This document shows positions 12,103-63,582 of a DNA stretch of 64,000 bases, one piece after another; position 1 is the stretch's first letter; every line of letters begins with the position of its first letter. Below the pieces are notes generated by a model. That model was given only the letters and a program-made list of their open reading frames with translations. It did not search any database and was not told where the DNA came from. Made by a program: the position numbers and the translations under genes. The stretch is from the NCBI RefSeq assembly GCF_026151205.1, contig NC_087078.1:7952675-8016674 (forward strand), in the 5' to 3' direction. The stretch is from Bolinopsis microptera. Its lineage: Eukaryota; Ctenophora; Tentaculata; Lobata; Bolinopsidae.

Positions 12103-12335
12103 GTGACAGATGTCGACTTTGCTGACGATCTTGCAATGACAACAGACACCGCAGAGCAAGCGCAAGATCTTCTCCTCAGTGTGGAGCTGGCTGCTAACTC
12201 CGTTGGCCTTCACCTCAACGAGAGTAAGACGAAGTACATCAGAGTCAATCTCTCTGAGTCTGACTCTACCGTCATTAAAGCAGCAAGTGGGCAGGAGATA
12301 GATCAAGTAGATGACTTTGTCTACCTTAATTCTGG
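12103..12335 (+). pseudogene. Reverse transcriptase fragment (non-LTR)
   Basis: The reading frame contains DVDFADDLAMTTDTAEQAQ, the catalytic [FY]ADD box of a non-LTR reverse transcriptase. It continues with the ESKTKYI thumb-like segment and a VDDFVYL motif. Only about 75 codons of RT remain, in an orientation opposite to the neighbouring LINE fragment. Its 3' half is repeated at 14248-14295 and 20042-20199 in the second tandem unit. Confidence 0.75.
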
Positions 12336-14229
12336 ACATGCTAAAGAAGGGCACCAGCCTTCCTGTGTTGAAGAGATAAGATCTGTTATGCTTGACCGCG
12401 ACGTGTGGCGAGGAATTGTATAATAGCTGCTCCGACCAAGAATGAAGAAGCCGACTTAAGTCAGTCAGTAAGTCAAACCAGTTGTAGCGCGATGCACTAC
12501 TTGATTCACGATGTCAATCCTTCGCAGCTCGGTGAGGCACAGTGGTGCATTTCGCCGATCTACCGAAGTTGCGAGAAGCATTATTTGATGCGCGCGCGAC
12601 CCAGTATGCAGTAGTGCATCGCGCTACAATGCACTACTGGTGACTGGGTCGCGCGCGCATCAAATAATGCTTCTCGCAACGGCAGTAGAACGGCGAAATG
12701 CACCATTGTGCCTCACCGAGCTGCGAAGGATTGACATCGTGAATCAAAATGCACGCCGAATTGCTTGCAATGATGACTGATGAGGTACACTATTTCAAAT
12801 TTCACTCTATCCAGAGCGCGATAGCACATGGTTAAATGTTAAATGAACTACATGAAGCCCGAGGGCTCAGGTTATATATTAGAGCTTACTTACTTATTAT
12901 TTAATTGACGATCATGTCACCCTTTTACTTCCAAAGCAACGATCTCGATGAGAAGCAAAAAATGATCGTTTGCGCGGCGCGTTGAAGCGACAAAATCCTC
13001 CAATAAAATTTCATAATTAAGCTTTTATTTATTAACTGTTTTTATAAATATGAGCTTCAGATTGCTTAAGTTTTTAAAAAGCAAGGTAACATATTGCTTT
13101 GTTTCTAATTTTAGATTCATTTTAAAGTTCTAAACACAAATCAATTAATAGTTGAATTCAAAGCTTTAAAATTGAATCATATGTAATAAAAACCGAGTTG
13201 AGCCTTGATTGTAATGACAACATAAAATCGTGGTCTGAGGTCAAGATTTATAACAAAGGCTGTATTTCAAATTTCCAAAATACTGATCGTTTCTAATTAA
13301 TTTGTAGTTTCCTCATTAAAAGAATCATTCTGCACATAATTTGTTCCTATCACTGTTTGATCAATGGCATTGGTCGAGAAACAAGATTCAGTGCTGCCAT
13401 TTACATTATATGTGTCTAGTTATCCAGAAATAATTTGTTATTAAATAATCGTGTACTTTGGTGTTGTCCAGATTCTGCATAGTGGTGATAAAAGAAGCAG
13501 CGGTTCAAATTGCAGCTTTATCATGTCTGCATCTGTTTTATTAGCCTCTAGCGTGGAGAAAAAGTTCGTTTCAAGTTGTTACGAACCTACATCTCTTGTA
13601 GACCTTCCGAACATAACGTCAATTACAAATAGACGTATTTAGTCTTAGATTTAGTTCTTGTATTTAGTCCCTAGACCAGACCAAGGGTCTGAACTGTTTC
13701 TTGCAGTCTAGTAGACACCTACATAGCGTAGTTTCCTCTAATAGGTTCTTGTTTCATTGAATAGTTTCATGAAAAATGTCTTGTTTCATTGATTTTTTCA
13801 CGATTTTTACTCAATTTCCACCATTTTAAGTTGAACTTCAGAAAACAAAAATATTGTGCAGGAATAGTATACCTGTTGTCTTCAGGGGGTTCGGCATTGG
13901 CGAAGTAGAATGTTAGAGTAGGTGCAAAGCCAAAAGCTTTATCTTCTTTTGAGTGATGGTTTGGGTCACAAGGTATAATTGGATTCATTCTTTTGATTTT
14001 CTTTGAGTAGAAGTTATTGTTGATGAAAATGATTGATTAAGTCTGATAAAATTGATTGTTTATATGTTGAATGATGTGACCTGATCTCGTAAGGTAGGTT
14101 AATTGTCACCTAGCCTAATAAGGGTGACACCATTCAAGTTTGCATGGGATGATGTAAGCCCTGCTTGGGCTGGTTCATAGTAGTCCGCAGACTGGTGCAC
14201 GGACTGGGTCTGAATTTTTTTCTTTTTTC
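12151..14229. repeat. Tandem unit A (~2.08 kb)
   Basis: First copy of a unit repeated at 14248-22058. It begins in the RT fragment (gcagagcaagcgcaagatc) and ends at the T-rich tract cttttttc. It contains a 245-bp palindrome and a conserved minus-strand ORF whose first 39 codons (from 13988) end at a plausible donor (GACAACAG/GTATAC). By eye, the copies differ by scattered substitutions and a few small indels. Confidence 0.9.
12502..12746. repeat. 245-bp hairpin palindrome, copy A
   Basis: Inverted arms of about 115 bp start TGATTCACGATGTCAATCC and meet around a short loop near 12620. The inner stem contains GCGCGCGACCCAGT and its complement. The arms have a few mismatches. GCACTAC-type sequence recurs at the left flank and around the loop, suggesting a small foldback MITE. 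An equal-length copy lies at 20339-20583. Confidence 0.9.
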
Positions 14230-14295: not shown

Positions 14296-15128
14296 TGTTA
14301 GAATCTTAATTCTATTTGTAGCTTGTTTTTGTACTTCATATTACTAACCCTGTATCTCACTTTAGCAAAGGTTTAGTTCCAGTGATTGTATATACAGTGT
14401 TGGGGTAAAGGGACTCCAGAAGGCAGACAAGGCTCGACTCCAGACTCTAGTTGAAGTAACAGAAGAGAGAGGAGTGTCCAGTGTTTAGTTGACTCCAGAC
14501 TCTAGCGTAGCAGAAGGGAGAGGAGTGACGTTGTCGACTCCAGACTCTAGCGTAGCAGAAGGGAGAGGAGTGACGTTGTTTTAGTGATCCCACAGATTCC
14601 AGTCGACAGATACTATCTGTGTTCTGTGACGTGGAAAGAGTGGTAAGTAGTTTATAGTTATAGTTTAGTAGTTTAGTCTAGGAGTTCCCGCTTCCTCTTT
14701 CACTTTCATTTATAGTTTCACGTGGATTACCTTTCACTTTACTCACGGTAGTTTTCCCCCAGGGTTTTGTTTTATAGTTATCAGTTCCAGTTTTACTTGA
14801 AGTCCTCATCATTCAGAAGTCCCTCATATAGTAAGAAGAACATCATCATCAGGAGTAGTAGTTTTAATTTAATAGTAGTTTAATCTAATAGTAAAAAAGA
14901 CATTGTTTAGTTTAGTATTGAATTGTGTTTTAACTATTAGTCAGAGCAGAGTAGTGTGAGTTACTGAGTCACACCATATCAATCATTCACTATTTAAGAG
15001 AGTACATTGTAGAGTAACAAGGTTACTTTTGACACAAGATTTGTATAACCTCTTTATTCATCTAATTTGTATTTATAATAATTGAGTATTATTTGTTATT
15101 TAATTAACCCAAGAACAGGGTTCCAACA
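14296..15128 (+). repeat. 5' LTR
   Basis: 833 bp, TG...CA termini. It contains internal direct repeats of a ~50-bp segment with gactccagactctagcgtag (about 14485-14580). Confidence 0.95.
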
Positions 15129-15240
15129 GTGGTAGCAGGAAGAACTACGTTACACCGGACCGTATTTATTTTTTGTATATTTTAACTAACACTTAACACC
15201 TAACACCCGATTTCAGCTTTCAGATTCTTCTACATCCATC

Positions 15241-17344
15241 ATGGGAAGTGACAAAGTACCTGTTCTCGATGAGAAGTCCAACTATTCAGATTGGAAACGG
15301 AGAGTTCAGTGGTGGAAGAAGGTAACCACGGTCAAGCCTGAAGCAGGAGCAGCTGCATTAATCATGAATATGTCTGGAAAACCAGAAGCTGTTGCTATAC
15401 AGCTGGACGTGGAAGAATTGTCCAAAGCAGGAGGAATAGATGTTCTCATTGCTGAGCTGGACAAGTTATATGAAAAAGACCAGACTCAGTCAGTCTTTAC
15501 GTCCATTGACAGCTTCATGAACTACAGAAGACCCAAGGAAGTGCCCATGGAAGCAGGAAGAGTATGTGAGAGAATTTAGCCATCGTTACAAGAGCCTTGT
15601 GCAGAAGCGTGGTGCTACTGTGGTATTTGAAGATGGAGTACTAGCGTACTTCTTATTACATCATGCTAATCTCTCGGACCATCAAAAGACGTTAATCAGG
15701 GCAACGGTCTCTAAGTTAAGCTACGAGAATATGGAATCCCAGCTTAAGAGAGCATACGGAGAAGATTATACTAATACATCTTCTTCTTCATCAAGCGCAA
15801 GCGGTGAAACATATTCCATCGGAAAACCAAAGATTAAAGAAGAGCCTGTAAATACTTATTTTCAACAGTACGACATCAACAATTCAGAACATTTTGGTGA
15901 TGACCAGAACAACCAGGAGGAAGACCCTCAGAAAGTTTTTTATCAACAAAGACACCACCAACACAGGGATTTTTATCCATCTAAGAGACCCTTCGGACAA
16001 AGACCCTTCGGACAAAGACCTGCGTTTCAAGGACAGAGTTCAGGAAACGTGTATCAACAAGCTCCATTTAGATCCAGACAAGGAGCACAAGAGCAACGAT
16101 CAGGACCCTTACGTTGTCATATTTGTAAGGAAACAGACCATTTGATGAGAGACTGTAAGTACAACACATTTGGAGAGAAGAAGCTTACATTCTTTGAGTC
16201 TGACTTTAAACTAAAAGACGAAGACAAGTGTCTTATGGGAGAATCGACAAATAGAGCACTTTTAGATACAGGTGCTAGTTCCACAGTGTGTGGGAAGAAA
16301 TGGCTGACAGCCTTCGAGGAATCTCTGACATCAGCTGAACAAGAAGAGGTCAACGTGACTCCTTGTGAGAAGAATTTTTGTTTCGGGGATGGAGATGCAG
16401 TTACAGCCAGGATACAAAAAGCACTCCCAGTAACAATATGTGGTCAGAAAGTAACTTTAAACGTGTTTATTGTGGAAAATGATATTCCTTTGTTACTGTC
16501 TAGAGAGTCCATGAAAAAGATGAAGATGAAGATCGATACTGAAACTGACAAAGTTTATGCTTTCGGAGGAGAAGAGAATCTAGTGATCACTAAGTCAGGA
16601 CACATGATGATACCCATAGGACGATGTGAAAGTTCTATCAGCCAAACAGATTCTGGAAGAACTAATCATGCAACAGAAATTAAGGTCCGTCCTGTTTTAG
16701 AGGAGAAGATTACATCGCCATGGTCACTAAGTGACGATGAAAGTGATCAAGAGGAGGAGTTAGAAACATTCAGTGGAGGTGACCTTGAGATTGTGCAAGA
16801 CAGGGAGTCAGAAAGTGATCTAGAAGGAGAGCCAGAGGATCATGGAACTGTGAGTTCAGTTTCAGGGAACGTGAATCAAGACAGTGATCTAGCAAGTGAG
16901 CTAGAGGACCATGGAGTTGTGAGCTCAGTTTCAGGTAATGTGGATCAAGACAGTGAGCCAGAAAGTAAGCCAGAAATTGAGACAGAAATTGAGCCAGATG
17001 ACCATGGAACTGTAAGTTCAGTTTCAGGGAGTGTGAATCTGTCAGATCTGTCAGTGAATCAGTCGGATTGGGAAAGTGTGTGTCAAACCAGAACAGGCGT
17101 GGGTGTAAAGAAGAATGACATTATCAGGTTCAGATCCTCGGAGAGTGATGATTGGAATAATGCCTTGGTGATAGGTAGAGCCGGGAAACCTACAGGGAAG
17201 AACAAAAATCTTTACAATGTACGACTGGACGAGTCAAACGGTGAACCCGTATCAGTTGAGTTGGATAACTGTACAAGTGCAGAGGTTAAAGATTGTTCAG
17301 GATGTCTCACGAAGAGAGGTGCAGTTTTCAGCAAGCTCGCTTAA
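15241..17344 (+). pseudogene. Copia-type Gag-protease, frame interrupted
   Basis: Frame 1 (15241-15579) is a copia-type Gag N-terminus. The second frame (15566-17344) carries the rest of Gag. It has a CCHC zinc knuckle (CHICKETDHLMRDC, residues 184-197), then an aspartic protease with catalytic LDTGAS (D234), acidic spacer repeats and a C-terminal module near IRFRSSESDDW and AGKPTGKNKNLYNV. The switch at 15550-15579 coincides with an apparent 7-base duplication-like insertion (GCAGGAA), so a mutation is more likely than programmed frameshifting. From 17345 to 19208 there is no coding sequence. In family terms, Gag packages the RNA and the protease matures it. Confidence 0.85.
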
Positions 17345-19208
17345 GTCATAGATCAAGGATACTGTGAATATGTCAGAGAGAGTATAACTGTTTTGGACTT
17401 TATGTTGTGGAAAAGAGAAGGAATATTTTTGCTCAAATTATTTGTTGTTTGAAATGTCAATTTGGTTAAACAATAACTTTTTAACGTCATTTGTAATAAA
17501 CTTTTAACTTTAAATGTGTGTGTATATATTAGTATTGTTAGAATTACCAACTTTGTAACGAGTCATTTTTACATTTTTAACCTTTCAGAGACTTTTAACA
17601 TGCACGAGGTGTTTGTATTTAACAATCTTTTAAACATTTGTAACTCTTTACACGTATATTAATTTTGTGTTTTTATGTTCTAGAGAAGTTTCTCGAACAG
17701 AAGTTTTGGGAAGGATATTTTGACAATTTTTTGTCGTTAGTTCATATTTTTTACTGAAGAATGTAGTAAGTTGGGAATGTTTGATGAAAAGTTAGTGAAT
17801 CCCATTTTTAGGAACCAGTCTATCCTTTCTTTTCTTTTCTCTTAGTCTGGTAACTGAACTTTGGTTGTATTTGCTAAATTTTCAACAATTTTGGGAGAAA
17901 GATAGATTAGTTAGCGAATTTAGACGTGTGTACCAGCTTTAGCGCTCCTTTTCTTTGTGTTGTAGCGCACGGTCACATTTGTCAGTTGATTTGCTAAATT
18001 TTCTATTACATGGTGTAGAGATAATAAGGATTAATAGATACAATTTAAAGTACATTTTGTACGTGACATGTGTAATAAAATTACCGCTAACAGAATATTT
18101 CAGATTCCTACTTCTAAAAGTCTAACATTTCAGTTTCAAACTTACTTTTCAGAAAGACGATCCTTTTCTTCTCAAAGACATGAAAGTGTTTACCTGATAT
18201 TACTTTATTAACTTGCATCTTCTGTAGGAAGTGTTAACAGGGGATGTTTGGTATTTTCTGTTGGGATGAGCTTGGAGCAGCTTGCTCAGCGTGAGTTTTT
18301 TGGTTTTATAAGAATGCTGTCGTTTCGATCAACATGCTATTACATGTTCTTCACTGATCCCGAGCCTTTAGGGACTCAGTTTGAACCTGTTTTTAAACGA
18401 CAGAATTCATGTATTTTACGTTTTAGAACTGTTTAGTACAGTGGTGTGTGTCAATGATTGGTTAGTGACTCATTATTGACTCTCAAGAGGTTGTGTTTAA
18501 AGCTTGAATAGCTCCTAATATTTAGTTGTAGTACGCAGTTTTTCTGTCATTACGATAACTCGATACAGAAATCTCTCAAGATCACACGTGATTACTGTGT
18601 TGGACGGGTATTTTTTGTGCTCCTGTCAGTCTTAGAACGATGTTTCAATTCCGTTCATAGAAAAGAGATTTTCGTATTAAGAACTTTGATAGTTAATTAG
18701 CTAATAGTTAGACTGTATTAATTCTATCGGACGTTTTGTACAAGTATTATATCTCTCAGATCTCACGCTCAGCGTGGAAGGCAGTCATTTTAGCCACTAG
18801 CCTGTTTTACAGCGGATGTTTTTCCCGCGTTAACAGAGATTTAATCCACTTGTACCACGTGACTCGCCGAATATGGAATAATCGTTAACTGCTTTTTTAG
18901 TTATCTGCTTTTATGACAGTGGACATGACACGTATTAGATTTGCCTTTGTTTGAGCCGCGCATTTGTAGCTCAAACTCATAGAAAGTATCTTTTTCGTTT
19001 AGCGCGCACGACACGTTTTTGTGTTGCGTGTGGGGATTAGAATATTCTTAACTCTACGGTTTTTGCTAGAGTTTATTTCCTAATTTTAACTCGGATAGTC
19101 GGATAGTATTTTTTAACAAAGAAAGTATAGGGAGTTATGACTTTAAGATTGTAAAAGTCATGAGTTAAATTATTAGTAAGTATTTTTTCTTTTTTAAAGT
19201 AGGGGGAA
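17345..19208. other. Non-coding interior of the LTR element
   Basis: 1.86 kb between the protease ORF and the 3' LTR, where a complete copia element would carry integrase, reverse transcriptase and RNase H. I see only short ORFs and T-rich sequence, ending in the polypurine tract. Confidence 0.7.
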
Positions 19209-20041
19209 TGTTAGAATCTTAATTCTATTTGTAGCTTGTTTTTGTACTTCATATTACTAACCCTGTATCTCACTTTAGCAAAGGTTTAGTTCCAGTGATT
19301 GTATATACAGTGTTGGGGTAAAGGGACTCCAGAAGGCAGACAAGGCTCGACTCCAGACTCTAGTTGAAGTAACAGAAGAGAGAGGAGTGTCCAGTGTTTA
19401 GTTGACTCCAGACTCTAGCGTAGCAGAAGGGAGAGGAGTGACGTTGTCGACTCCAGACTCTAGCGTAGCAGAAGGGAGAGGAGTGACGTTGTTTTAGTGA
19501 TCCCACAGATTCCAGTCGACAGATACTATCTGTGTTCTGTGACGTGGAAAGAGTGGTAAGTAGTTTATAGTTATAGTTTAGTAGTTTAGTCTAGGAGTTC
19601 CCGCTTCCTCTTTCACTTTCATTTATAGTTTCACGTGGATTACCTTTCACTTTACTCACGGTAGTTTTCCCCCAGGGTTTTGTTTTATAGTTATCAGTTC
19701 CAGTTTTACTTGAAGTCCTCATCATTCAGAAGTCCCTCATATAGTAAGAAGAACATCATCATCAGGAGTAGTAGTTTTAATTTAATAGTAGTTTAATCTA
19801 ATAGTAAAAAAGACATTGTTTAGTTTAGTATTGAATTGTGTTTTAACTATTAGTCAGAGCAGAGTAGTGTGAGTTACTGAGTCACACCATATCAATCATT
19901 CACTATTTAAGAGAGTACATTGTAGAGTAACAAGGTTACTTTTGACACAAGATTTGTATAACCTCTTTATTCATCTAATTTGTATTTATAATAATTGAGT
20001 ATTATTTGTTATTTAATTAACCCAAGAACAGGGTTCCAACA
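19209..20041 (+). repeat. 3' LTR
   Basis: 833 bp. It appears identical to the 5' LTR in the parts compared by eye. Confidence 0.95.
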
Positions 20042-20199
20042 CTAACTCCGTTGGCCTTCACCTCAACGAGAGTAAGACGAAGTACATCAGAGTCAATTTC
20101 TCTGAGTCTGACTCTACCGTCATTAAAGCAGCAAGTGGGCAGGAGATAAATCAAGTAGATGACTTTGTCTACCTTAATTCTGGACATGCTAAAGAAGGG
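20042..20199 (+). pseudogene. Second copy of the RT fragment (3' part)
   Basis: Continuation of the RT fragment after the LTR insertion. It matches 12191-12340 with few substitutions and then a 1-base difference near 20209. Confidence 0.7.
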
Positions 20200-20338
20200 C
20201 ACCAGCCTTTCCTGTGTTGAAGAGATAAGATCTGTTATGCTTGACCGCGACGTGTGGCGAGAAATTGTAGCTGCTCCGACCAAGAAGCCGACTTAAGTCA
20301 GTCAGTAAGTCAAACCAGTTGTAGCGCGATGCACTACT

Positions 20339-20583
20339 TGATTCACGATGTCAATCCTTCGCAGCTCGGTGAGGCACAGTGGTGCATTTCGCCGATCTAC
20401 CGAAGTTGCGAGAAGCATTATTTGATGCGCGCGCGACCCAGTATGCAGTAGTGCATCGCGCTACAATGCACTACTGGTGACTGGGTCGCGCGCGCATCAA
20501 ATAATGCTTCTCGCAACGGCAGTAGAACGGCGAAATGCACCATTGTGCCTCACCGAGCTGCGAAGGATTGACATCGTGAATCA
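20339..20583. repeat. 245-bp hairpin palindrome, copy B
   Basis: Same length and, by eye, the same sequence as 12502-12746. Confidence 0.9.
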
Positions 20584-22739
20584 AAATGCACGCCGAATTG
20601 CTTGCAATGATGACTGATGAGGTACACTATTTCAAATTTCACTCTATCCAGAGCGCGATAGCACATGGTTAAATGTTAAATGAACTACATGAAGCCCGAG
20701 GGCTCAGGTTATATATTAGAGCTTACTTACTTATTATTTAATTGACGATCATGTCACCCTTTTACTTCCAAAGCAACGATCTCGATGAGAAGCAAAAAAT
20801 GATCGTTTGCGCGGCGCGTCGAAGCGACAAAATCCTCCAATAAAATTTCATAATTAAGCTTTTATTTATTAACTGTTTTTATAAATATGAGCTTCAGATT
20901 GCTTAAGTTTTTAAAAAGCAAGGTAACATATTGCTTTGTTTCTAATTTTAGATTCATTTTAAAGTTCTAAACACAAATCAATTAATAGTTGAATTCAAAG
21001 CTTTAAAATTGAATCATATGTAATAAAAACCGAGTTGAGCCTTGATTGTAATGACAACATAAAATCGTGGTCTGAGGTCAAGATTTATAACAAAGGATGT
21101 ATTTCAAATTTCCAAAATACTGATCGTTTCTAATTAATTTGTAGTTTCCTCATTAAAAGAATCATTCTGCACATAATTTGTTCCTATCACTGTTTGATCA
21201 ATGGCATTGGTCGAGAAACAAGATTCAGTGCTGCCATTTACATTATATGTGTCTAGTTATCCAGAAATAATTTGTTATTAAATAATCGTGTACTTTGGTG
21301 TTGTCCAGATTCTGCATAGTGGTGATAAAAGAAGCAGCGGTTCAAATTGCAGCTTTATCATGTCTGCATCTGTTTTATTAGCCTCTAGCGTGGAGAAAGA
21401 GTTCGTTTCAAGTTGTTACGAACCTACATCTCTTGTAGACCTTCCGAACATAACGTCAATTACAAATAGACGTATTTAGTCTTAGATTTAGTTCTTGTAT
21501 TTAGTCCCTAGACCAGACCAAGGGTCTGAACTGTTTCTTGCAGTCTAGTAGACACCTACATAGCGTAGTTTCCTCTAATAGGTTCTTGTTTCATTGAATA
21601 GTTTCATGAAAAATGTCTTGTTTCATTGATTTTTTCACGATTTTTACTCAATTTCCACCATTTTAAGTTGAACTTCAGGAAACAAAAATATTGTGCAGGA
21701 ATAGTATACCTGTTGTCTTCAGGGGGTTCGGCATTGGCGAAGTAGAATGTTAGAGTAGGTGCAAAGCCAAAAGCTTTATCTTCTTTTGAGTGATGGTTTG
21801 GGTCACAAGGTATAATTGGATTCATTCTTTTGATTTTCTTTGAGTAGAAGTTATTGTTGATGAAAATTATTGATTAAGTCTGATAAAATTGATTGTTTAT
21901 ATGTTGAATGATGTGACCTGAGGTAGGTTAATTGTCACCTAGCCTAATAAGGGTGACACCATTCAAGTTTGCATGGGATGATGTAAGCCCTGCTTGGGCT
22001 GGTTCATAGTAGTCCGCAGACTGGTGCACGGACTGGGTCTGAATTTTTTTCTTTTTTCATATTGACAGATTTTTCTAAAGTTTCAATAGGAATTTAAATA
22101 AATAAATAAATAAATAAAGTCAATTTTTACAGCACAGCAATATATATCTAAATATCAGATCCTCTGTAATCATAATGTATAAAAAAAGGAGCTTTTCTCT
22201 GTGCTGAAGGATGAATCAAGGCAGATCATGGTTCTGTTAGCAGGCCACCCTAGTTATGGACAATACATATATATAAAATAATTAAATTATAATTTTAAAA
22301 TTGTGTCAAGAATGAACTAAAACATAACTCAGGGTAAAATAGACGTATTCCCTTCGTCAAATTAACTATTTACAATACTAAACTTAAACGAACTCCGGGT
22401 AAAATAAACGTAATCCCTTTGTCGTTCTAGATACAAAACTTATAAGGATTGTCAAACTTGCTATTTACAATAAGTTAATAAATTAATACGGTTGAAAATT
22501 ATTTCATATTCAATAACAATGTAGCATCAATATAATTGATACAAATGAGGAGCATACAGTGAGAATTGCACATAACAGGAGGACTGGAGGTATGGAGCAA
22601 TAATGATTGACAGTGCACCTTTCCACTGATGTTCCTAATTTCCTGTAATAGCTTAATAGGCATGGAAATACTTTGATTGCAGGGGATAGATTGGATTCAC
22701 TTATGTACTGAGATAACTTAACCGAAATAACATAACTGC

Positions 22740-25700
22740 CTAGATACATTGGCTAGTGTTGGGTGGGATCATGAATTTATCGTAAGAGTTATCCCCTTGG
22801 TAATTCTCATCAGTTAGCAACATATTCATAAGAGTTTCTTTGTATAACTTAGAAAATTTCTTAACGTCGTCACACTCTCTAAGGGACTTTGGTAATATGT
22901 TCCAGGCCTTAGTTCCTAGATAGTTAAACTCCTTGTGAGATCTTGATTTAGGAGTATAAAGATTGCAGTTTTCTGCCTCACGTGATCCACCAGAAATATA
23001 CGAGAATTTCCCGATAAAATGCTTTGGACATGTTTCATTGATTATACGGTACATATATGAGCTAAGATGAACCTGTCGTCTCAAATGGAGAGGAAGCCAT
23101 CCCATATTTTTGTATACATTAACCGACCTCTCTCTGATGTTTACATCTAGGGCTATTTTAGCAACCTTTTTGTACATGATATCTAACTCTCCTAGTCGTT
23201 TTTTATATGTTCTTGACCAGATGGTGTCTAAGTAGTCAAAATGTGGCAACATAAGTGCATTAGCAAACATCTTCCTGAACTTAAGAGGGAGAAGTTTTTT
23301 TGATCTATACATAGCACCAATTCTTTTGGATATCTTTTTCTTAATGTTATCAATATGTTCATTAAATGTCAATCTGCTGTCAACTATAAGTCCAAGGTAC
23401 TTATGGGATTTAGTTTCACAGATTACCAAAGTAAGGTCATCACAAATTTCAACAAGGATGGCATCAAGGTTAGGCTTAGAGTCAAGGATCATTAGTTTTG
23501 TTTTTTCATTATTCAGGGATAGTTTATTAGCCTGAAGCCATCTGATAACTAATTTCAACTCTTGTTTGATGTTACCATAGTTTCCTCTAGATATATTGTC
23601 AAAATATAATGCACCGTCATCAGCAAATAGATAAGGTTTAGAAAATAGGCATGCATTAGGCAGGTCATTGATAAAAATGCTGAATAGAATTGGTCCTAAT
23701 ATACTTCCTTGAGGCACTCCAGAGTTCAATGAATGTAAACTGCTTATCCTACTCCCAACTCTAGTTTGCTGTAATCTATCTGTGAGGAAGCTCCTAAACC
23801 AGCTCAATGCAGTATCTTTTATTCCATAATGCTTCAGCTTTTGAATGAGAATATCATGGTTAACAGTATCAAATGCCTTTCTGATGTCCAGGAAGATAAT
23901 TGCAGGATGCTTGGCACTGTTCTTAGCAGTAAATATACGATCAAACAGATCTAACATGAGATAAGTTGTAGAGTGATCTTTACGGAAACCATATTGATGC
24001 TCTGAAAGTATTCCCTTTTCATCAAGATATTGAGTCAGTTGGGAGTTCACACAAAATTCGATGCACTTTCCAAGAATCGGTAAAATTGAGATTGGTCGAT
24101 AATTACTAGGATTTTCAGTATCACCATCCTTATGGATTGGGGTGACTTTTGCAACCTTGCAGCTGTTTGGCATGATGCCACTGGATAAACTCAAATTTAC
24201 AAGATGTGTTAATGGAGCAATAAATGCAGGTAAAATTTGTCTAAACACTCTCAATGGTATATGATCATTAGTGGATTTGCTACAAGGGATACTTGCCACA
24301 TAGTCTAAGATATTGGACTCAGTTATTTCAGTAAAGCTATTCAAGCTGGTCTCGTTGTCAATCTGCTCATTTTGTAGATAAGATAGAAATTCATTTTCAT
24401 TTTCCAGCTGCACTTCTGCTTGGATCTTTGGACCTATTTCAGCAAAATATTTATTGGTGGTTTCAGCATCAAGATTGTTATTGATATTGTTAGCTTTAAC
24501 AGGCAGATTTGATGCTGTCTTTATCGTTTTCCATACACCCTTTAGATCATTCATGGCACACTTGGCTTTCAGTTCTGTTGCTAAGTTAGTCTTCCTATTA
24601 ATTCTAGACAAATAGGTTGAATAGTTTCTCTGCCGTTTATATGCCATCCATAATGAGTCACATTTATTACAGTGTATAAGACCATTTGGATGTATACGTC
24701 TGTTCTTGTTGTGTGTTAAAAATTTACGGTAAAGTTTCCCTTTCAATTTCTTACTTTCTAAAAATTCTGGAGATGGCTTATGGATGTAATCACTATGGCA
24801 CTTAATTTGTTTAATTGGACAGAAGTGATCATAGTAGTGATCAATATGTTCGTTTAAACCATCAACTGCATCATTCAGACTAGTTGAATCTATTATTGGT
24901 CTATAATCACAGGTTTCCAAAAATTCTTTAAGAGCAGTAACATTCATTTTGCTGTGATCTCTTATTAGTAACTTCTTGAATTTTGAGGCCTTATGCACAT
25001 TGAAATCGACAATGAACTTTACGACCTGATGATCTCCTATACAATCATCAAGGACTTTGCAGTCAAGAAACTTGGAGTAAGTGTTTGTTATGACAACATC
25101 GATTGTGGTCTTTGTGATTCTGTTTCCTAGTTTAGCAATGCGGGTAATATCCTGAACTACCTGTACCATTCCAAACATTTTCATTGTAATGTCTAATTTC
25201 TTATAGTTCATACTGCTGATGTTGTTTTGGTCTACATTTACATCACCCAGCCAAATAACATTCTTACTTCCTATACTCATCATGCAGTCTGTCATATAAT
25301 CTAAAAATTTGTCAAGAGGACTAAACAACTCAGATCTGTAGAAACAGCAGATGAAAATATTGCAATCTGTAAGATGGATCCAAATAGCCTCGATTTGGTC
25401 ATATTGCAAAACTAAGTTTAGTTGAATCATTTTAAACTTTATGTGCTCACTGATGAGAATGCCACATCCCCCATGACCATTGTCGTTAGGACGGTCTTTG
25501 CGGATAAAAGTAAAATTCTTGGGTAGGTTTAGACTGGCTGAGTCAATATCCGACTTAAGATTTGTTTCATTCAGGCATAAAACATCTAATTTCTCTTTCC
25601 AGATTAGATCTTGGATTTCAAGACATTTTGGCATACCTGTTAGTCCTCCCTGCATGTTGCAATGTCCCACTGCAAGCTTTTTGGCATGGTATGAAACTGT

Positions 25701-25760
25701 GATTTTACTAATGCACGGGTTAATGCAAGAACTGCTGTGAGAGCATGAAAATTTTTCCAA
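22740..25760 (-). CDS. LINE ORF2: APE endonuclease-reverse transcriptase
   Basis: A 1006-residue polyprotein that nicks target DNA and reverse-transcribes the element. The APE-like endonuclease spans residues ~30-250 with candidate catalytic positions N34 (CNMQGG), E65 (LNET), D173/N175 (LGDVN), D221 (TTIDVV) and D243/H244 (IGDHQ). The RT spans ~530-800 with YRPISIL (554-560), FLDIRKAFD (first catalytic Asp, D625), SGVPQGSILGP, and FADD (712-715) replacing the commoner YADD. No RNase H is seen. The C-terminal ~200 residues are basic. The frame is fully open, with no missing catalytic residue apparent. It follows ORF1 on the same strand. Confidence 0.95.
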   Translation of the reverse strand: MEKFSCSHSSSCINPCISKITVSYHAKKLAVGHCNMQGGLTGMPKCLEIQDLIWKEKLDVLCLNETNLKSDIDSASLNLPKNFTFIRKDRPNDNGHGGCGILISEHIKFKMIQLNLVLQYDQIEAIWIHLTDCNIFICCFYRSELFSPLDKFLDYMTDCMMSIGSKNVIWLGDVNVDQNNISSMNYKKLDITMKMFGMVQVVQDITRIAKLGNRITKTTIDVVITNTYSKFLDCKVLDDCIGDHQVVKFIVDFNVHKASKFKKLLIRDHSKMNVTALKEFLETCDYRPIIDSTSLNDAVDGLNEHIDHYYDHFCPIKQIKCHSDYIHKPSPEFLESKKLKGKLYRKFLTHNKNRRIHPNGLIHCNKCDSLWMAYKRQRNYSTYLSRINRKTNLATELKAKCAMNDLKGVWKTIKTASNLPVKANNINNNLDAETTNKYFAEIGPKIQAEVQLENENEFLSYLQNEQIDNETSLNSFTEITESNILDYVASIPCSKSTNDHIPLRVFRQILPAFIAPLTHLVNLSLSSGIMPNSCKVAKVTPIHKDGDTENPSNYRPISILPILGKCIEFCVNSQLTQYLDEKGILSEHQYGFRKDHSTTYLMLDLFDRIFTAKNSAKHPAIIFLDIRKAFDTVNHDILIQKLKHYGIKDTALSWFRSFLTDRLQQTRVGSRISSLHSLNSGVPQGSILGPILFSIFINDLPNACLFSKPYLFADDGALYFDNISRGNYGNIKQELKLVIRWLQANKLSLNNEKTKLMILDSKPNLDAILVEICDDLTLVICETKSHKYLGLIVDSRLTFNEHIDNIKKKISKRIGAMYRSKKLLPLKFRKMFANALMLPHFDYLDTIWSRTYKKRLGELDIMYKKVAKIALDVNIRERSVNVYKNMGWLPLHLRRQVHLSSYMYRIINETCPKHFIGKFSYISGGSREAENCNLYTPKSRSHKEFNYLGTKAWNILPKSLRECDDVKKFSKLYKETLMNMLLTDENYQGDNSYDKFMIPPNTSQCI

Positions 25761-25926
25761 TTTATGCTGCTATAAACTTGTCAGAATAAGATAAATTGCA
25801 GAACTGGCAAATTTGTATGAGATAATAACAAAACTTTCTAAAACTTCAATAAACATGAGGAACAATGTGTAATTATCCCTTATCTAGAATCTAGATGAAA
25901 TAAATGTTAACAATCTTTCTGAAAAT

Positions 25927-27801
25927 TCATACTTGCTTATGGGCCCAATACTTCAGAAATTTAGCAAGTCGAATAACACCGCTTGTATTGAGGTGACAGT
26001 TATCAGATATTTTTGCAGATGGTCTGGCAAAATAAAATTCTTTCCTGAATCCACTTCTATTATAGTTAAATAAATTATGGGTGCTAATGTAATTAAAACA
26101 AGAATCTTTGCTACACATATCCTTAATAACCTTATTCAGCTCTGCCACAACATCATTGCGGCCTTTTGTACTCCTGGGAAGAATATTGAGAACATTAATT
26201 GTTGCATTCGGATACACTGACTTGAGATAATTTAAGAGATTACTAATGTCACCCGCTGCATCCTTCAGTGACTTTGAGCCAAAATAGACTGTGTTCACAT
26301 TATTAGTTCCTGTCATAATATAAATAATAGATGGGGATGGAACGGAGTGTAGGTCAGTTTTTAGTTTATTTAACATTACTTTGGCATCAGCCCCAGGATA
26401 AAACAGTTTACTAGCACTAACAGTGGACGATGATAACTTGTCCGCATCAAGAAACCTGAACATAGAGCTGCTTATGAATAGGACAGACTTTTGTGAAGCT
26501 TTGGCTGGCTGTTTGCAAACTGAGAGTGCAGGTGAAGAAGAGTCTGTCTGTTTGTGTCCTGAATGAGGGATGGGTGGGGGCCGTGAACGCAGACCAAACT
26601 CAGTTGACTGAGTGATCCTAGGGGGCTTCATCAGTCTTAGGGTGATGCTGATCCGGGGTTCATCACACATTTCGTCTGGCAGTATCTCATGTTGAAAGTC
26701 AGCCTGAGACAATTTGGACATGATGAAGACATCTCCATGCTGAAGCTGCACAGAGCCCACAACTTCATTGCTGCCGTTTGATCTAATTTGCAGTGTTCTC
26801 GTCGCACCAAGTGAAATGGTTACAATATCAGAGTGTTCTACAATACATGATTCAGAATCGCTATGAGCTGGCATGAACTCTGCTCCAGTTTCATATAGAT
26901 TGACGAGAATACTATTGTGTCTGAAATTGGGTAATATCACATTAATGTAGGAGCTGAGTTTAGCAAGGTAGGAATCATTGTGTACACTTTTTGGGTCATG
27001 TGTTGCACCTGAATACTCATAGGGAAAGTCACCAAAATAAACCGATTTCCTGTTTTTAAAACCGTGACTGAACTCAAGTTCTTCCATTAATAGATCAAGT
27101 GAAAATTTAGAGAATGGACCATCATCTAGTAGGGTAACTGGTTTCACTGGTGATGGGGAACAAGTTACAGATATATTCATTGGCCCCGGTGTTATAGGAT
27201 CGTAGACAGGGGCAGGGACCAAGTTTGGATATTTGTCTCTGGGCTTAGGGGTGTTGATCCGTGATTCACCAGTAGCAGTAGATACAGGGAGATCAGACAC
27301 ATCATCCTCGTCTGCCATAACCTCGTTAACAACAATCTCACTGATAACAATCTCGTTTCCAACAACCTCCTGTGGAACAACCTTGTCCACGACATCGTTG
27401 TCAACAAACAAACTGTCCGATACAACATCTTCCACAACAATGTCATCTACATCAAACGCTTCTACTTGATTGATAACAACGTGTGACTGAGGGGTAATGG
27501 TTATGATCTCACATTCAATCTCCTCTGATAAGTTCGGCAGCAAATTTTCACACTTAAAACTCTGTTCTTGTATTTGAGTTTGATCTGATATGAGACTATC
27601 ATTGTACTGAGCAATGAGATCACTAGTTCTGATAATTTCATTCAATAAAGACAACTTTTTTTCTAAAAAGTCAATCTTGATGTCTTTTGACAGACAATTG
27701 TTACAGTTCTCTGATTTTTCAGACTGGAATGAAAAGTTCAAATGTTCTAAAGGGCGCTCACAAAAGTGGAGACTAATGTCTGAGCTCTGATTATTTGACA
27801 T
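25927..27801 (-). CDS. LINE ORF1: AlkB-like dioxygenase fused to SGNH esterase
   Basis: 624 residues in three parts. The N-terminus (1-230) has a Leu-rich coiled-coil-like segment (45-65) and an acidic, Val-rich stretch (115-170). Residues ~235-392 match the AlkB family of Fe(II)/2-oxoglutarate dioxygenases: NLYETGAEFMPAHSD gives the iron ligands H313 and D315, ISLGATRTLQIR is the conserved strand, H371 is the third ligand and R383 (EPRIS) the 2OG-binding arginine. Residues ~437-624 are an SGNH/GDSL hydrolase: nucleophile candidate S446 (ISSSMF), oxyanion block TGTNN (497-501), and D600-x-x-H603. Esterase domains are known in CR1-type ORF1 proteins. The AlkB part would oxidatively remove alkyl lesions from nucleic acid. 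All key residues of both enzymes are present. Confidence 0.9.
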   Translation of the reverse strand: MSNNQSSDISLHFCERPLEHLNFSFQSEKSENCNNCLSKDIKIDFLEKKLSLLNEIIRTSDLIAQYNDSLISDQTQIQEQSFKCENLLPNLSEEIECEIITITPQSHVVINQVEAFDVDDIVVEDVVSDSLFVDNDVVDKVVPQEVVGNEIVISEIVVNEVMADEDDVSDLPVSTATGESRINTPKPRDKYPNLVPAPVYDPITPGPMNISVTCSPSPVKPVTLLDDGPFSKFSLDLLMEELEFSHGFKNRKSVYFGDFPYEYSGATHDPKSVHNDSYLAKLSSYINVILPNFRHNSILVNLYETGAEFMPAHSDSESCIVEHSDIVTISLGATRTLQIRSNGSNEVVGSVQLQHGDVFIMSKLSQADFQHEILPDEMCDEPRISITLRLMKPPRITQSTEFGLRSRPPPIPHSGHKQTDSSSPALSVCKQPAKASQKSVLFISSSMFRFLDADKLSSSTVSASKLFYPGADAKVMLNKLKTDLHSVPSPSIIYIMTGTNNVNTVYFGSKSLKDAAGDISNLLNYLKSVYPNATINVLNILPRSTKGRNDVVAELNKVIKDMCSKDSCFNYISTHNLFNYNRSGFRKEFYFARPSAKISDNCHLNTSGVIRLAKFLKYWAHKQV

Positions 27802-28276
27802 AGTTATATTATCAAGAGTTCAATGTTCAGAAGCACAATAAACACTGTAAACGCAATACCTTCAGTCCAGATAGTAGTTTTGATGAGAATAGTTTTGATG
27901 AGAAGGAGGAGGATGAGTAATCTTCAAGTACACTCACAGCAGTCCTTTGCACGTCAACACTTACGCTCGTCTATCATATCTCATACCTCAGATTATTTGT
28001 TATATAGTAGTGTTGAAAGGAACATTTTGACAAGTGGAAAATCACTGCTACTAGCACACTCATTTACGTGGGAGTTGTGAAAATTGTTTAACATTTTTGT
28101 GATCATGAACAGTCAATATCTAATAGAGGTTCAGGTCTTAAATACTAAAGTTTGAATCCCAATCTAATTTCTTATAGAAAATCTGTTCACAAATAAAGTA
28201 TCAAATCTCCGTTTTAAGAATTGTATCACTTTTCAACCAATAAAAACTAACTTGTACATATCAGTGTAGCCGCAAG

Positions 28277-45705
<17,429 letters not shown>

Positions 45706-46404: not shown

Positions 46405-47780
46405 GGGGGGGGGCCAATGGATATTTTTTTGTGAAACTTGATTTCGAGATAGCAGTTGACCAACAAACTAAGACCAGTGACCGAACTTTTGAGGGGGTCC
46501 CGGACCCCAACCGCCAAACGGTGCCCGCAGGGCAGCCACGCCCATATTTGGTCCAAATTAGGCCCAATTTAGCCAAATACTCTGAACATGCCCAAAACCC
46601 AAATTTTAGGTGCTCTACTTGTAGCTAGTGGTCTCTTGAAGTCGTATATGAAATTTCATCAAGATTGGACAAAAAATGACTGAGTTATGAGCCAAAAACC
46701 ATATGCCCATATTTGGGCATACGCACCAAATTTGGTAGATTTCGTCCCATAAATTGGTCAAATATCAATATTTTTCACTGAAACTTACTTTATATGAAAG
46801 GTAAGCCTAAACTACATATTCTCTGTAAGTTATAGCTTTATATCTGTTTAAATGTGGATACTAAGGCGAAAAGACCACAAAAAATGAACTAAATTGCCCA
46901 TATCTTGGTTCGCGATATTCGCGGAATTGATCTCATTAAAATTGTAACAACTCAATCAGTTTTCAAAATTTTTCCATGAAATTTTCGGAATCGACTCGAA
47001 ATCGCATTTCCACCTTAGTTTGAGAACAGATTTTTGATTAAGGCCTCAAAAAAAATTTGGCGGCCAAATTCTGAATTTCTCCGGGAAAATTTTGGAATTT
47101 GGCCGCCAAATTTTTTTGGAGGCCTAAATCAAAAATCTGTTCTCAAACTAAGGTGGAAATGCGATTTCGAGTCGATTCCGAAAATTTCATGGAAAAATTT
47201 TGAAAACTGATCGAGTTGTTACAATTTTAATGAGATCAATTCCGCGAATATCGCGAACCAAGATATGGGCAATTTAGTTCATTTTTTGTGGTCTTTTCGC
47301 CTTAGTATCCACATTTAAACAGATATAAAGCTATAACTTACAGAGAATATGTAGTTTAGGCTTACCTTTCATATAAAGTAAGTTTCAGTGAAAAATATTG
47401 ATATTTGACCAATTTATGGGACGAAATCTACCAAATTTGGTGCGTATGCCCAAATATGGGCATATGGTTTTTGGCTCATAACTCAGTCATTTTTTGTCCA
47501 ATCTTGATGAAATTTCATATACGAGTTCAGGAGACCACTAGCTACAAGTAGAGCACCTAAAATTTGGGTTTTGGGCATGTTCAGGGTATTTGGCTAAATT
47601 GGGCCTAATTTGGACCAAATATGGGCGTGGCTGCCCCGCAGGCACCGTTTGGCGGTTAGGGTCCGGGACCCCCTCAAAAGTTCGGTCACTGGTCCTAGTT
47701 TGTTGGTCAACTGCTATCTCGAAATCAAGTTTCACAAAAAAATATCCATTGGCCCCCCCCCCCCCCCCCCCCCCCCCCCC
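46405..47780. mobile_element. 1.38 kb near-perfect palindromic element, G9/C28 ends
   Basis: Two arms of ~670 bp meet at about 47080-47095 (GAATTTCTCCGGGAAAATTT). The left end is TTAA then G9; the right end is C28 then TTAA. TTAA on both sides could be a 4-bp duplication, as for piggyBac or Kolobok insertions, or part of the inverted repeat. The arms differ by only a few bases. A diverged single-arm relative lies at 56150-56540. ORFs in both arms are mirror images and not genes. Confidence 0.9.
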
Positions 47781-53700: not shown

Positions 53701-54273
53701 CTAGCTTATAGCCTTTTCTTTGTCTGCTTTACTAATATTAGGCTCAAATACTAAAGCGTCTACTATAATGACAGAAAGGTGCTTACTGAGTGAGGAATTA
53801 TAGGAGGCTATGGTACTAAAATCTAAATCATGATCAATATCTAAAAAATGGTTAACTAATTTACAACTTCTTATACCTTTCTTTATGTGACTCTTATGGT
53901 TAGAGAATCTCTTAGGGAGATTTGAGGTAGTATAACCGACATACGACTGTTTACAAGTCTTACACTCCATTAAATAAATGAGGTTATAACTCTGACAAGA
54001 TATATACTTAGTTATAGGGAAAACTTGTTTAGAATGGTGACTACTAAAATTGGAACAGGGGGACAGGAAATTTTGCTTACAAACATAACATTTACCACAA
54101 GCATGGCACCCTGGGTCGACAGCCCCGGGAACCGCCCTTAGACTTTCGGAGTCTGGTTCCTGGATCTGGCTTGCAGTTGTTTCTCTCTCATTATCACAGT
54201 TTAAAGTTCCACTGGCACGGTACTTATTGTGTACAAGCATGCCACCGATAGTTTGATTCTTTCGATGACTCAC
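53701..54273 (-). pseudogene. Penelope-like element, GIY-YIG endonuclease fragment
   Basis: 190 codons. Residues ~100-150 hold LIYLMECKTCKQSYVGYTTS followed by LPKRF and NHKSHI, the GIY-YIG endonuclease pattern (here LIYLMEC...YVGYT) with its Arg/His segment. This is preceded by a Cys-rich CHACGKCYVC motif, as in Penelope-like retroelements. The reverse transcriptase that should precede it (above 54273) is missing, and TA-repeats follow there. It is a 5'-truncated copy lying between Tctex exons. Confidence 0.8.
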
Positions 54274-54950
54274 GAATACACTGTCCGCACGTACCAGCTA
54301 TATATATATATGTGAATTTCGTGTTTTACTGTTTCACTGAATGTCTCAAATATATATATATATTTGAGATAAGCAGGTTTCTATAATAGTGTCATATATA
54401 TTTTGAGTGACTATTGGCTGGCACTTCGGGCCAGTCCCCAACAACCAACATATTAATTATCAAAGCTATATTAGATTTTATACGAACACAGCGAATAAAT
54501 TAGCCGAAAATATTTCAACTTACATTCGAATCCATTGAATCTTTTGACTCAGTCTGTCTTACCAATTCTGAAATTTAGTTTCATATCTTCTCTACTAATA
54601 ATATCGATAAAACCCTGAATTCGATAAATGAAATATTTCCATCATTCTATAAACCAACGAAAATGAAATGTGTAACTTTGATTCATGCTAAAAACTGGAG
54701 AGAGTTTAGTCAACTACGGAGTGGCCTATAATTGACGCAACCACGTATTTTTCTTCCAAAAGTTGGTCTACGATACTGTTTTACGCTTGCACACTATAAA
54801 AAAATCCTAGACAAGAGCTATTGTTCTCATATATATCGCATGGAATCAACTTCTAATGGGCCCTCCTAATTCCTATACTATGTATGTATTATCTATTCGT
54901 GTAATTTATTATTAGAAAAGATAAAATTCATTCGTGCTTCTTCAGATTAC

Positions 54951-61920: not shown

Positions 61921-63582
61921 TTACACAATTTTTCCGTTTCGAGTACGACACACCCTTTCGTGCTTTGTAGAGGAGTTTCGCATGTGCCAATCCCAACAGT
62001 CTTCGCAAAAGTAGTCAAGGCACTTACGGCAGTAAATCGGACCAGGATATTGGCACTTGGAGCAATTTTCGTTCTCTCGAATATAAGGGTCTATTTGAAT
62101 CCTTTTATCGACCTTAGGGGAGATACACTGAACTTGGACATACTTTTCTTGGATGGCTCTCTGATAGCTCTCCAAGCTCGAGAAATTCACCCTGCCAGAA
62201 CCCAGAGGATATTTATACTTGTCGGTGTCTATTTCAACATAGGCTACATTGCCAAACAAGTCGTTCATGACCTTGGAAAGGCCGGTCGCTGTAAGCATCC
62301 CATGAAGTCCTCCGACAAACACTTGATGGTGCATGTTGACCTTGTCTTTAGTACCAATGACTTTGGTATCATCATTCAAATTCCATGGTATGACTTGTAT
62401 TTCCTTGCTATGCATTTTCTCTGATCGCACATGGTATTTGTACATGGTACCGTCTGAGACATCACGGAATACTCTTGCTGAGTAAGATCGACAAAACTCT
62501 AGCAGGTTGGTAACGGAGGTGGCATCATCAAAGACTATGTAAACATATCCTTTAGGTTTTTGGCCATTTTTGTTGGGTGGCCACTCTACCGCCAGACTTC
62601 CAAATACCTCGAAAGTTTCTTTAAGGTTCTCATCTTTGATATCCCAGGGGACGCCACCCAAGAAAACCTTTCTTGAGTATTTGTTATCATTGGCATCCTT
62701 GGGAGGGAGCTCCCCGGTCCACTTAAGAGGGGGACGAGGAGGGGCGCAAAATGGCTTCAGCTTCTCTTTTGGCTGTCCGTAGCTAACATCAGTTCCCTCA
62801 GGAGGATTATATACGTCATGATGGTCACGAGAGTTTCCCAACTGCATTGGGTTCAGTTTTGCTTTAATCGGGGTAAGAGAGAATGATGCCATTTGTTTCT
62901 TCACAGGCGAATGGTGACGAGACAGCGATGCATTAGACAAACTAGGCATGAATGCCCGGCGACTACCAGGGGTCCGGCTGAAGTCGACTGCTGGTGACTT
63001 TTGGAAACCCATTACTGGTGATTGTATCAGGTTTTTTAAGTTCTCCATGATATCGGTCATCGGACTATTCTGCTTTTTATCTCTGAAGTTGGGAATTTCA
63101 AGAAGAGATTTCTTTTTAGGGGATTGATATTTAGGAAAGCTATGTATGTTGGTCCATCTTGGAGAGTATGATTTCCATGTCTTTCTTTCTGGAGTGGTTG
63201 GTTTGTAGCTTCTGCTGCTGTAAAAGCTTTCTGGAGAAGTCTTGCCCCATCCAAATTCTCCAATACTGTTCATGTTATCAGTCGGTCTGTTTGTCTCCCA
63301 CTGGAAAACATCATTTTAGTAAATGATGGATCCGGATATAAGATCTTAAATCCAGAAGAAACAAATCAAATATTGACTGTGGCAAACTGAAAATAAGCTA
63401 TATACCGATATAGCTTTATAATTTAATGCAATATTATGCAAGTTAACATCTGTATATCATTGCAAGTGACTTTTAATAATGAGGAAAAAAACGAAATAAA
63501 AATATTACCTTTTTAATCTCATCAAAGTCGGTATTTACAATTATGACCGTATCACTTTCAACTATTCTGACTTTATAACTTC
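61921..63582 (-). CDS. CPEB1: CPEB1 (Orb) RNA-binding protein, 3' part
   Basis: Binds UUUUAU-type elements in 3' UTRs and controls cytoplasmic polyadenylation and translation in oocytes and neurons. The large last exon (61921-63300) holds residues 1-450 if counted from the in-frame Met at 63273. An upstream exon, 63509-63582, joins it in phase 0, so the protein starts further upstream, outside what I can identify. RRM1 ~200-290 (RKVFLGGVPWDI; KGYVYIVF), RRM2 ~316-396 (HQVFVGGLHGML; GSGRVNF), then a ZZ-type zinc domain with C404, C407, C415, C418, C423, C426, H430 and H438. GSLAVEWP and KEIQVIPWNL place it with CPEB1 rather than CPEB2-4. The N-terminal part is disordered with many SP/TP sites, as expected for kinase regulation. 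Confidence 0.95.

Follow-up and report, generated by a model that had tools for sequence, protein, structure and literature searches.

An AlkB-type dioxygenase fused to an SGNH esterase in the ORF1 of LINE retrotransposons of Bolinopsis microptera

A LINE with an AlkB-SGNH ORF1

The window analyzed in this study is a 64,000-nucleotide stretch of the Bolinopsis microptera genome (assembly GCF_026151205.1, contig NC_087078.1, positions 7,952,675 to 8,016,674), and it contains a long interspersed nuclear element (LINE) in which the first open reading frame (ORF1) fuses an AlkB-type dioxygenase to an SGNH esterase. ORF1 lies directly before an intact ORF2 with an apurinic/apyrimidinic-type (APE) endonuclease and a reverse transcriptase. 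This arrangement had been proposed in an initial annotation of the window and was confirmed by Pfam, by profiles built from relatives, and by the matches in ORF2; the coordinates proposed for ORF1 (Table 1) also stood, and the one correction concerned the strand, which is minus. The frame is open over 25927-27819, giving 630 amino acids (aa) from stop to stop and 624 aa from the ATG at 27801. ORF2 was matched by RVT_1 at 5.8e-37 and by the APE profiles Exo_endo_phos (1.9e-4) and Exo_endo_phos_2 (4.7e-4), both under the Pfam cut-off. Both ORFs are open in the window copy, which has no long terminal repeats and carries a short tandem-repeat tail at its 3' end. Judged on these sequence features, the element is an APE-type LINE, that is, a non-LTR retrotransposon.

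The initial annotation had suggested checking the ORF1 product against two Pfam families, and the two domains fared differently. The dioxygenase was matched by 2OG-FeII_Oxy_2 (PF13532, the AlkB family) at 3.6e-18 and 66.9 bits versus a cut-off of 31.2, spanning residues 267-395 of the 630-aa frame; a leave-one-out AlkB profile found the window protein at 2.9e-54. Both the metal site HxD...H and RxxxxxR are present, and the residues named earlier, H313-x-D315, H371, and R383, fall on columns H86, D88, H144, and R156 of our AlkB alignment (A1). The match of the esterase to Lipase_GDSL_2 (PF13472; 8.7e-5, residues 495-613 of the same frame) remained under the cut-off at 23.5 bits versus 32.9, and this domain was instead shown by relatives' profiles. 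A profile of the other 13 SGNH rows found the window protein at 1.1e-38, and a 14-row profile (13 LINE rows and one Helitron) matched the esterase of the zebrafish ZfL2-1 ORF1 (4c1b) at 2.8e-15 and a putative platelet-activating-factor enzyme (2hsj) at 1.1e-15. Given the relatives' profile and the 4c1b match, we consider the SGNH identity settled despite the weak Pfam score. The predicted catalytic residues S446, GTN, and D600-x-x-H603 correspond to columns S10, G62, N64, D164, and H167 of the SGNH alignment (A2), where S10, G62, N64, and H167 are kept in 19/19 rows, the Ser having been required when the first 14 rows were cut.

The fusion is not confined to a single copy, a possibility that the initial annotation had raised. 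A search of the genome with ORF1 returned 80 rows, 20 of which (window copy counted) are full-length frames with 98-100% identity, scattered over 20 sites on 12 contigs; the copy number is a lower bound, because the search scored 70 of 962 candidates. The corresponding ORF2 search (45 of 6570 candidates scored) returned 46 rows, 23 of which cover residues 1-1009, and 21 of those 23 are stop-free. We judge from these sequences that the window family has been active recently. The 5' end is sharp, given that the match starts at the window copy's base +/-1 (window 28018-28019) in 24 of 29 other copies (L012-L040). When the 5' ends of three copies were examined in detail, two had about 10 extra common bases absent from the window copy, and the third departed from the others close to the 5' end. 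In three 3' flanks (L050-L052), similarity to the window element ends within the TTTA tail. No clear target-site duplication was seen in the window copy or the three others inspected; the best candidate of the window copy is 13 bases with one mismatch and lies about 126 bases off the shared 5' end. About 260 bases beyond that end of the LINE is an ORF on the opposite strand that appears by eye to be exon 1 of a phosphoribosyl-pyrophosphate synthetase gene.

Table 1. Coordinates of the LINE and its parts within the window
Feature	Coordinates	Strand	Evidence
Whole LINE element, ~5.9 kb	22090..28018	minus	shared 5' end and TTTA-tail 3' limit
5' untranslated region	27802..28018	minus	between common 5' end and ORF1 ATG
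ORF1, 624 aa including stop: N-terminal region, AlkB, linker, SGNH	25927..27801	minus	open frame
CxxC, then leucine-rich, coiled-coil-like stretch	27595..27705	minus	sequence reading by eye
AlkB domain (residues 236-399 of 630-aa frame)	26623..27114	minus	Pfam PF13532, leave-one-out profile, phmmer
SGNH esterase domain (residues 443-630 of 630-aa frame)	25930..26493	minus	Pfam PF13472, leave-one-out profile, 4c1b
ORF2 (APE endonuclease, reverse transcriptase), 1009 aa stop to stop	22740..25769	minus	Pfam
APE endonuclease domain in ORF2	25020..25616	minus	Pfam
Reverse transcriptase domain, FADD motif	23385..24137	minus	Pfam and sequence reading
3' tail, (TTTA)n	22090..22119	minus	tail read in window copy and three other copies

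The domain pair in other LINE families and in Helitrons

The AlkB and SGNH domains occur together in 17 ORF1 families of the same genome (F1-F17). The families were picked by frame length with no formal identity cut, and ORF1 identity reaches at least 55% in three family pairs (F2-F3, 56%; F4-F5, 60%; F14-F16, 80%). In all 12 of F1-F12 (the window family, L009, L041-L048, L053, and L056), AlkB is followed by SGNH in a single frame, and AlkB scores above the Pfam cut-off. Leave-one-out profiles, for which each family was removed in turn and the near twin was also removed for F4, F5, and F10, recovered AlkB at 5e-33 or better and SGNH at 4.8e-7 or better in 12/12 families, the value of 4.8e-7 being that of F10. 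A Pfam SGNH-type model was matched at E<=0.1 in 10 of these 12 families, every time under the cut-off. Loci L054, L055, L057, L059, and L060 appear by eye to be further members. Across the genome, the AlkB profile gave 151 matches, with 150 of 587 candidates scored, and the statements below on AlkB in other frames refer to the matches listed. Five more families (F13-F17; L062-L066) were taken from the list of SGNH matches precisely because no AlkB match was listed for them, yet a profile of the other families found AlkB in 5/5, at 5e-22 to 2e-29, and PF13532 reached two of the five. The idea that SGNH frames of about 430-530 aa represent AlkB-free LINEs was rejected, given that AlkB was present in all five such frames examined.

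The active site is strongly conserved across these elements. Columns H86, D88, H144, R156, and R162 are identical in 22/22 aligned AlkB rows, three host-type genes among them; 17 of the rows were cut with a pattern requiring HxD and RxxxxxR, so that the conservation of those columns is partly circular there, but this touches neither the five later-added families nor the distal His. The same pattern fits 29 of 30 loci found through ORF1, the exception being L034 (in-frame stop), as well as 23 of 24 loci selected by AlkB matches, where the exception, L058, resembles F10 but is broken, its SGNH part being truncated and N replacing T between the two Arg. Ahead of AlkB, an N-terminal CxxC is found at a similar location in F1-F5, and PHD-like fingers, under the Pfam cut-off, are found in F8, F9, F11, and F12.

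The families were tied to LINEs through ORF2. Pfam gave an APE-type endonuclease match (E<0.01) downstream of ORF1 for every family, at the locus itself in 16 of 17 and, for F2, in the sister copy L008; the match exceeds the curated cut-off in nine: F2 (via L008), F3, F4, F10, F11, F13, F14, F16, and F17. The ORF2 of F15 is broken and gave weak endonuclease matches in two pieces. These matches strengthen the LINE assignment of F13-F17; the reverse transcriptase itself was identified in the window family, and the other families were assigned by the endonuclease. Elsewhere in the genome (C5 22265392-22275700), an AlkB ORF (L005) is followed about 700 bases downstream by an SGNH ORF (L061), with no long frame resembling a reverse transcriptase or Rep seen nearby; these could possibly be a domesticated or source gene, or chance neighbors.

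The pair is also present in rolling-circle DNA transposons. All six listed AlkB matches in frames longer than 2000 aa coincide with a Helitron Rep match in contig, strand, and frame length, which corresponds to 6 of 41 Helitron Rep rows. These elements lie on contigs C3, C9, C10, and C12 (L007 and L049 among them) and contain a single frame of about 2200-3400 aa with Rep. In L049, where the helicase was examined, Rep (Helitron_like_N) was matched at 3.6e-22 and the PIF1 helicase at 6.2e-22, and in L007 the catalytic residues of both AlkB and SGNH are kept. An SGNH match ahead of AlkB is listed in the frame of three of the six, and a fourth has an SGNH match with an in-frame stop (150 of 424 candidates were scored in the SGNH search). 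The order SGNH-AlkB in Helitrons is thus the reverse of the order AlkB-SGNH in LINEs.

The window holds several other elements and genes. An element at 14296-20041 carries a long direct repeat at each terminus, the two being identical over 300 nt, and encodes a gag-like frame in which a zinc knuckle and a protease-like motif were recognized by eye, with no reverse transcriptase frame seen in it; a duplicate of about 2 kb flanks it on both sides (12194-14229 and 20042-22058). At 29013-31274, in an apparent host-gene intron, inverted arms of a 9-base repeat flank a long CCT-rich array. A near-perfect palindrome of 1.36 kb at 46405-47761 (arms of 678 nt, 98%, 1 nt spacer, G and C runs at the ends) looks like a foldback element. 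A GIY-YIG frame lies at 53704-54297 (Pfam 7.4e-8), and 61924-63315 contains an exon of a CPEB-like RNA-binding protein (RRM_7, 6.9e-25; CEBP_ZZ, 3.8e-14). Outside the window, Penelope-like frames were recognized by eye beside the LINE copies L042 and L060. In line with a ctenophore genome, one of six receptor fragments of this assembly that were searched jointly matched the PDB entry ML032222a iGluR (the ML prefix denotes Mnemiopsis) at 3.4e-54 over 115 residues, well ahead of any other receptor, whereas for a single receptor the 60 listed of 246 hits included no ctenophore entry.

Selection, descent, and possible roles of the AlkB domain

The initial annotation had suggested a comparison of the AlkB part across copies, and this indicated purifying selection among young copies. 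Among the 20 full-length ORF1 copies, with changes counted from the majority codon against a neutral expectation, the nonsynonymous and synonymous counts are 2 and 8 in AlkB (ratio 0.07; binomial p 1.3e-4) and 8 and 9 in SGNH (p 0.005). The N-terminal part has 18 and 10 (ratio 0.49; p 0.10, not significant), the linker has 4 and 2, and AlkB differs from the N-terminal part and linker taken together (p 0.027). Over a longer time scale, in 11 families, AlkB distances track APE distances at r=0.91 (0/5000 shuffles as high), SGNH-APE distances are correlated at r=0.67 (1/5000), and AlkB-SGNH distances are correlated at r=0.63 (0/5000). The AlkB, SGNH, and APE trees share the close groups F1+F3, F4+F5, F6+F7, and F11+F12; F8 groups with F9 by AlkB and by APE but not by SGNH. 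Given this agreement of AlkB and APE distances and trees, AlkB has probably descended together with ORF2 over a long time. The AlkB of F10 (L048, L054) groups with host-type genes with a support of 0.98-0.99, which may reflect either long-branch attraction or an independent capture event. The placement of the Helitron AlkB varied: it joined F13-F17 in a larger tree (0.85) and fell elsewhere in a smaller one (0.38). Transposable elements often pick up host sequence, and we considered that the domain could be a chance capture, a passenger, or an artifact of assembly. This is extremely improbable in view of the 20 dispersed full-length copies, the 17 families, the two open ORFs, the purifying selection, and the codivergence of AlkB with APE.

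We next consider what type of AlkB this is, given that its affinity bears on most of the possible roles. Against solved structures, the window AlkB was closest by phmmer to ALKBH3 (8.9e-15), followed by ALKBH2 (1.9e-6) and Escherichia coli AlkB (0.003), and a profile of 11 LINE AlkB domains gave the same leaders (ALKBH3, 2.7e-26; ALKBH2, 3.2e-24; ALKBH8, 4.8e-12; E. coli AlkB, 4e-10). ALKBH5 and FTO both have PDB entries, and no entry with either name was found among the 39 matches of the LINE-only profile to solved structures at E<=0.01. The best matches of this genome to ALKBH3 and ALKBH2 are L004 and L003, respectively. By sequence comparison, the domain is a complete AlkB of the ALKBH2/3 type, and we infer that it would carry out 2-oxoglutarate-dependent demethylation. 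The profile also matched DNA N6-methyladenine (6mA) demethylase entries at 1e-5, and AlkB could accordingly be imagined to remove DNA methyl marks such as 6mA at the target or the new copy and so evade silencing, a role with which the PHD-like fingers of some families would agree. We consider this very unlikely, given that the 6mA demethylase matches are about 20 orders of magnitude weaker than that to ALKBH3. It is quite unlikely, too, that AlkB serves chiefly as a nucleic acid-binding module otherwise missing from esterase-type ORF1s, with catalysis secondary. Its placement between the N-terminal region and the esterase would suit such a module, but binding alone would not require the five catalytic residues that are kept in every aligned row, including those of the blindly chosen families.

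The role that we favor, and to which we give about an even chance, is that AlkB removes alkyl groups from the single-stranded RNA or complementary DNA (cDNA) of the element itself. 1-Methyladenine (1mA) and 3-methylcytosine (3mC) stall reverse transcriptase. The ORF1 protein would bind the element RNA within a ribonucleoprotein, and AlkB, with Fe(II), O2, and 2-oxoglutarate, would strip base methyls such as 1mA and 3mC from the template RNA, the single-stranded cDNA, or both, allowing target-primed reverse transcription to finish; the SGNH domain may mediate contact with lipids or membranes, a role put forward for the ORF1 of ZfL2-1 in zebrafish. Helitrons pass through single-stranded DNA, and the presence of the same pair in some of them fits a repair role on single strands. 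Methylated RNA phage is reactivated by E. coli AlkB and human ABH3, and viral AlkB domains have been read as repair domains (PMC544882). The proposal of the initial annotation, in which the enzyme would protect or demethylate the element's nucleic acid, fits the ranking of ALKBH3 and ALKBH2, the lack of an ALKBH5 or FTO match, and the purifying selection. A different possibility is that AlkB erases N6-methyladenosine (m6A) or another regulatory mark from the element mRNA and so escapes host surveillance. The AlkB of orchid Gypsy elements was shown in vitro to be an active demethylase, and m6A RNA was suggested as its substrate (PMC9289625). That protein is termed ALKBH5-like, whereas the LINE AlkB ranks with ALKBH3 and ALKBH2, and in human cells L1 movement is lowered by ALKBH5 and raised by m6A (PMC7873242). 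We therefore consider m6A control of mRNA unlikely and favor single-strand repair, on account of the ALKBH2/3 affinity and the presence in Helitrons. More tentatively, the AlkB-SGNH pair could be a portable two-enzyme module for mobile elements that originated or became widespread early in ctenophores, was passed between LINEs and Helitrons, and repairs single-stranded intermediates, with the F10 AlkB perhaps derived separately from an ALKBH2/3-like host gene.

Several observations weigh against the repair interpretation. Neither domain was found (two profiles, E<=0.1) at any of five loci chosen solely by ORF2 endonuclease (L084-L088), where the 2 kb searched lay upstream of the endonuclease match with a gap of about 0.6 kb or more; by eye, L085, L087, and L088 have other ORF1-like frames, and L084 and L086 have no clear ORF1. 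The pair thus marks a set of LINE lineages, not all. Likewise, no AlkB match is listed in the frame for 35 of 41 Helitron Rep rows, and together with the five endonuclease-picked families this means that neither LINEs nor Helitrons need the pair in general. Some domain calls rest on relatives' profiles, namely, SGNH in F11 and F12, where no Pfam SGNH match was obtained at E<=0.1, and AlkB in F13, F15, and F17, where the Pfam cut-off was not reached. The SGNH catalytic Asp column is Asp in 13 of 19 rows and another residue in 6 of 19. The selection test drew on 61 changes in total, 10 of them in AlkB, from copies that share history. An AlphaFold model of the window AlkB, made from a single sequence, was too poor to use (predicted local distance difference test [pLDDT] of 46), and a fold search with it gave 237 matches at E<=10 with no AlkB among the 50 listed, the top matches being small heat shock domains with a probability of <0.1. 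Finally, sequence alone cannot separate 1mA/3mC repair from other demethylation, nor RNA from single-stranded DNA as the substrate.

Comparison with known elements

No published report of AlkB in a LINE ORF1, or of AlkB-SGNH in a Helitron, was found among the papers listed by a literature search that covered neither bioRxiv, RepBase, nor most subscription papers. Three viral-contig scans and one genome-contig scan returned no real relative; the collections are viral and prokaryotic, and for this reason we draw no inference on other animals. Two viral candidates, L001 and L002, were matched via a short peptide, and the L001 frame containing this peptide appears by eye to be a ribonucleotide reductase.

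The closest known systems are the ZfL2-1 ORF1 and the type IV (esterase) ORF1s of L2 and CR1 LINEs, which likewise place an SGNH esterase before an APE-reverse transcriptase ORF2 (PMC3905857, PMC4120745), and the CxxC and leucine-rich N terminus of F1-F5 resembles the zf/lz of CR1 subgroup 7. The LINE described here differs in that an AlkB dioxygenase additionally precedes the esterase. In a published survey, esterase ORF1s are reported only in two vertebrate groups, and Table 1 there, on the ORF1 domains of 448 elements, contains no AlkB (PMC4120745). The SGNH residues S, G, N, and H that characterize type IV ORF1s were found in 19/19 rows; type IV is also described in that table as having no other catalytic domain, and AlkB is present in 17/17 families, and we therefore classify the present ORF1, on its domain content, as a variant of the esterase type. 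How esterase-type ORF1 proteins handle RNA is a stated open question (PMC3905857). The esterase-type ORF1s described here carry a putative nucleic acid-modifying enzyme maintained by selection, which makes possible a clean test of whether a retrotransposon repairs or unmasks its own template.

AlkB domains have been described in other mobile or RNA-based elements. The AlkB Gypsy elements of Phalaenopsis orchids are also retroelements with an AlkB domain, but there it is ALKBH5-like, is encoded by an additional ORF of an LTR element, and is described from one orchid genus (PMC9289625), whereas here it is ALKBH2/3-like, is fused to an esterase inside a LINE ORF1, and occurs in many diverged families. 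An m6A eraser of the ALKBH5 type would be expected to rank closest to ALKBH5 or FTO; the best matches of the LINE AlkB are ALKBH3 and ALKBH2. Human ALKBH3 and ALKBH2, the closest solved sequences, have the same active-site residues as the LINE AlkB but are stand-alone host repair enzymes. The Flexiviridae, a group of plant RNA viruses, likewise have an AlkB repair domain on an RNA-based genetic element; in these viruses AlkB does not track the replication domains and was apparently acquired recently (PMC544882), whereas in the LINEs it tracks the endonuclease. In fish, the Helitron-linked texim genes similarly encode an SGNH hydrolase that travels with Helitrons and is related to CR1 esterases; texim is an SGNH gene captured by a Helitron, and the term AlkB does not occur in that report (PMC4021074), whereas here SGNH and AlkB are in one frame with Rep. 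Within one genome, then, LINEs and rolling-circle DNA transposons have the same enzyme pair in opposite order, which raises the question of domain exchange or convergence between mobile elements of unrelated classes.

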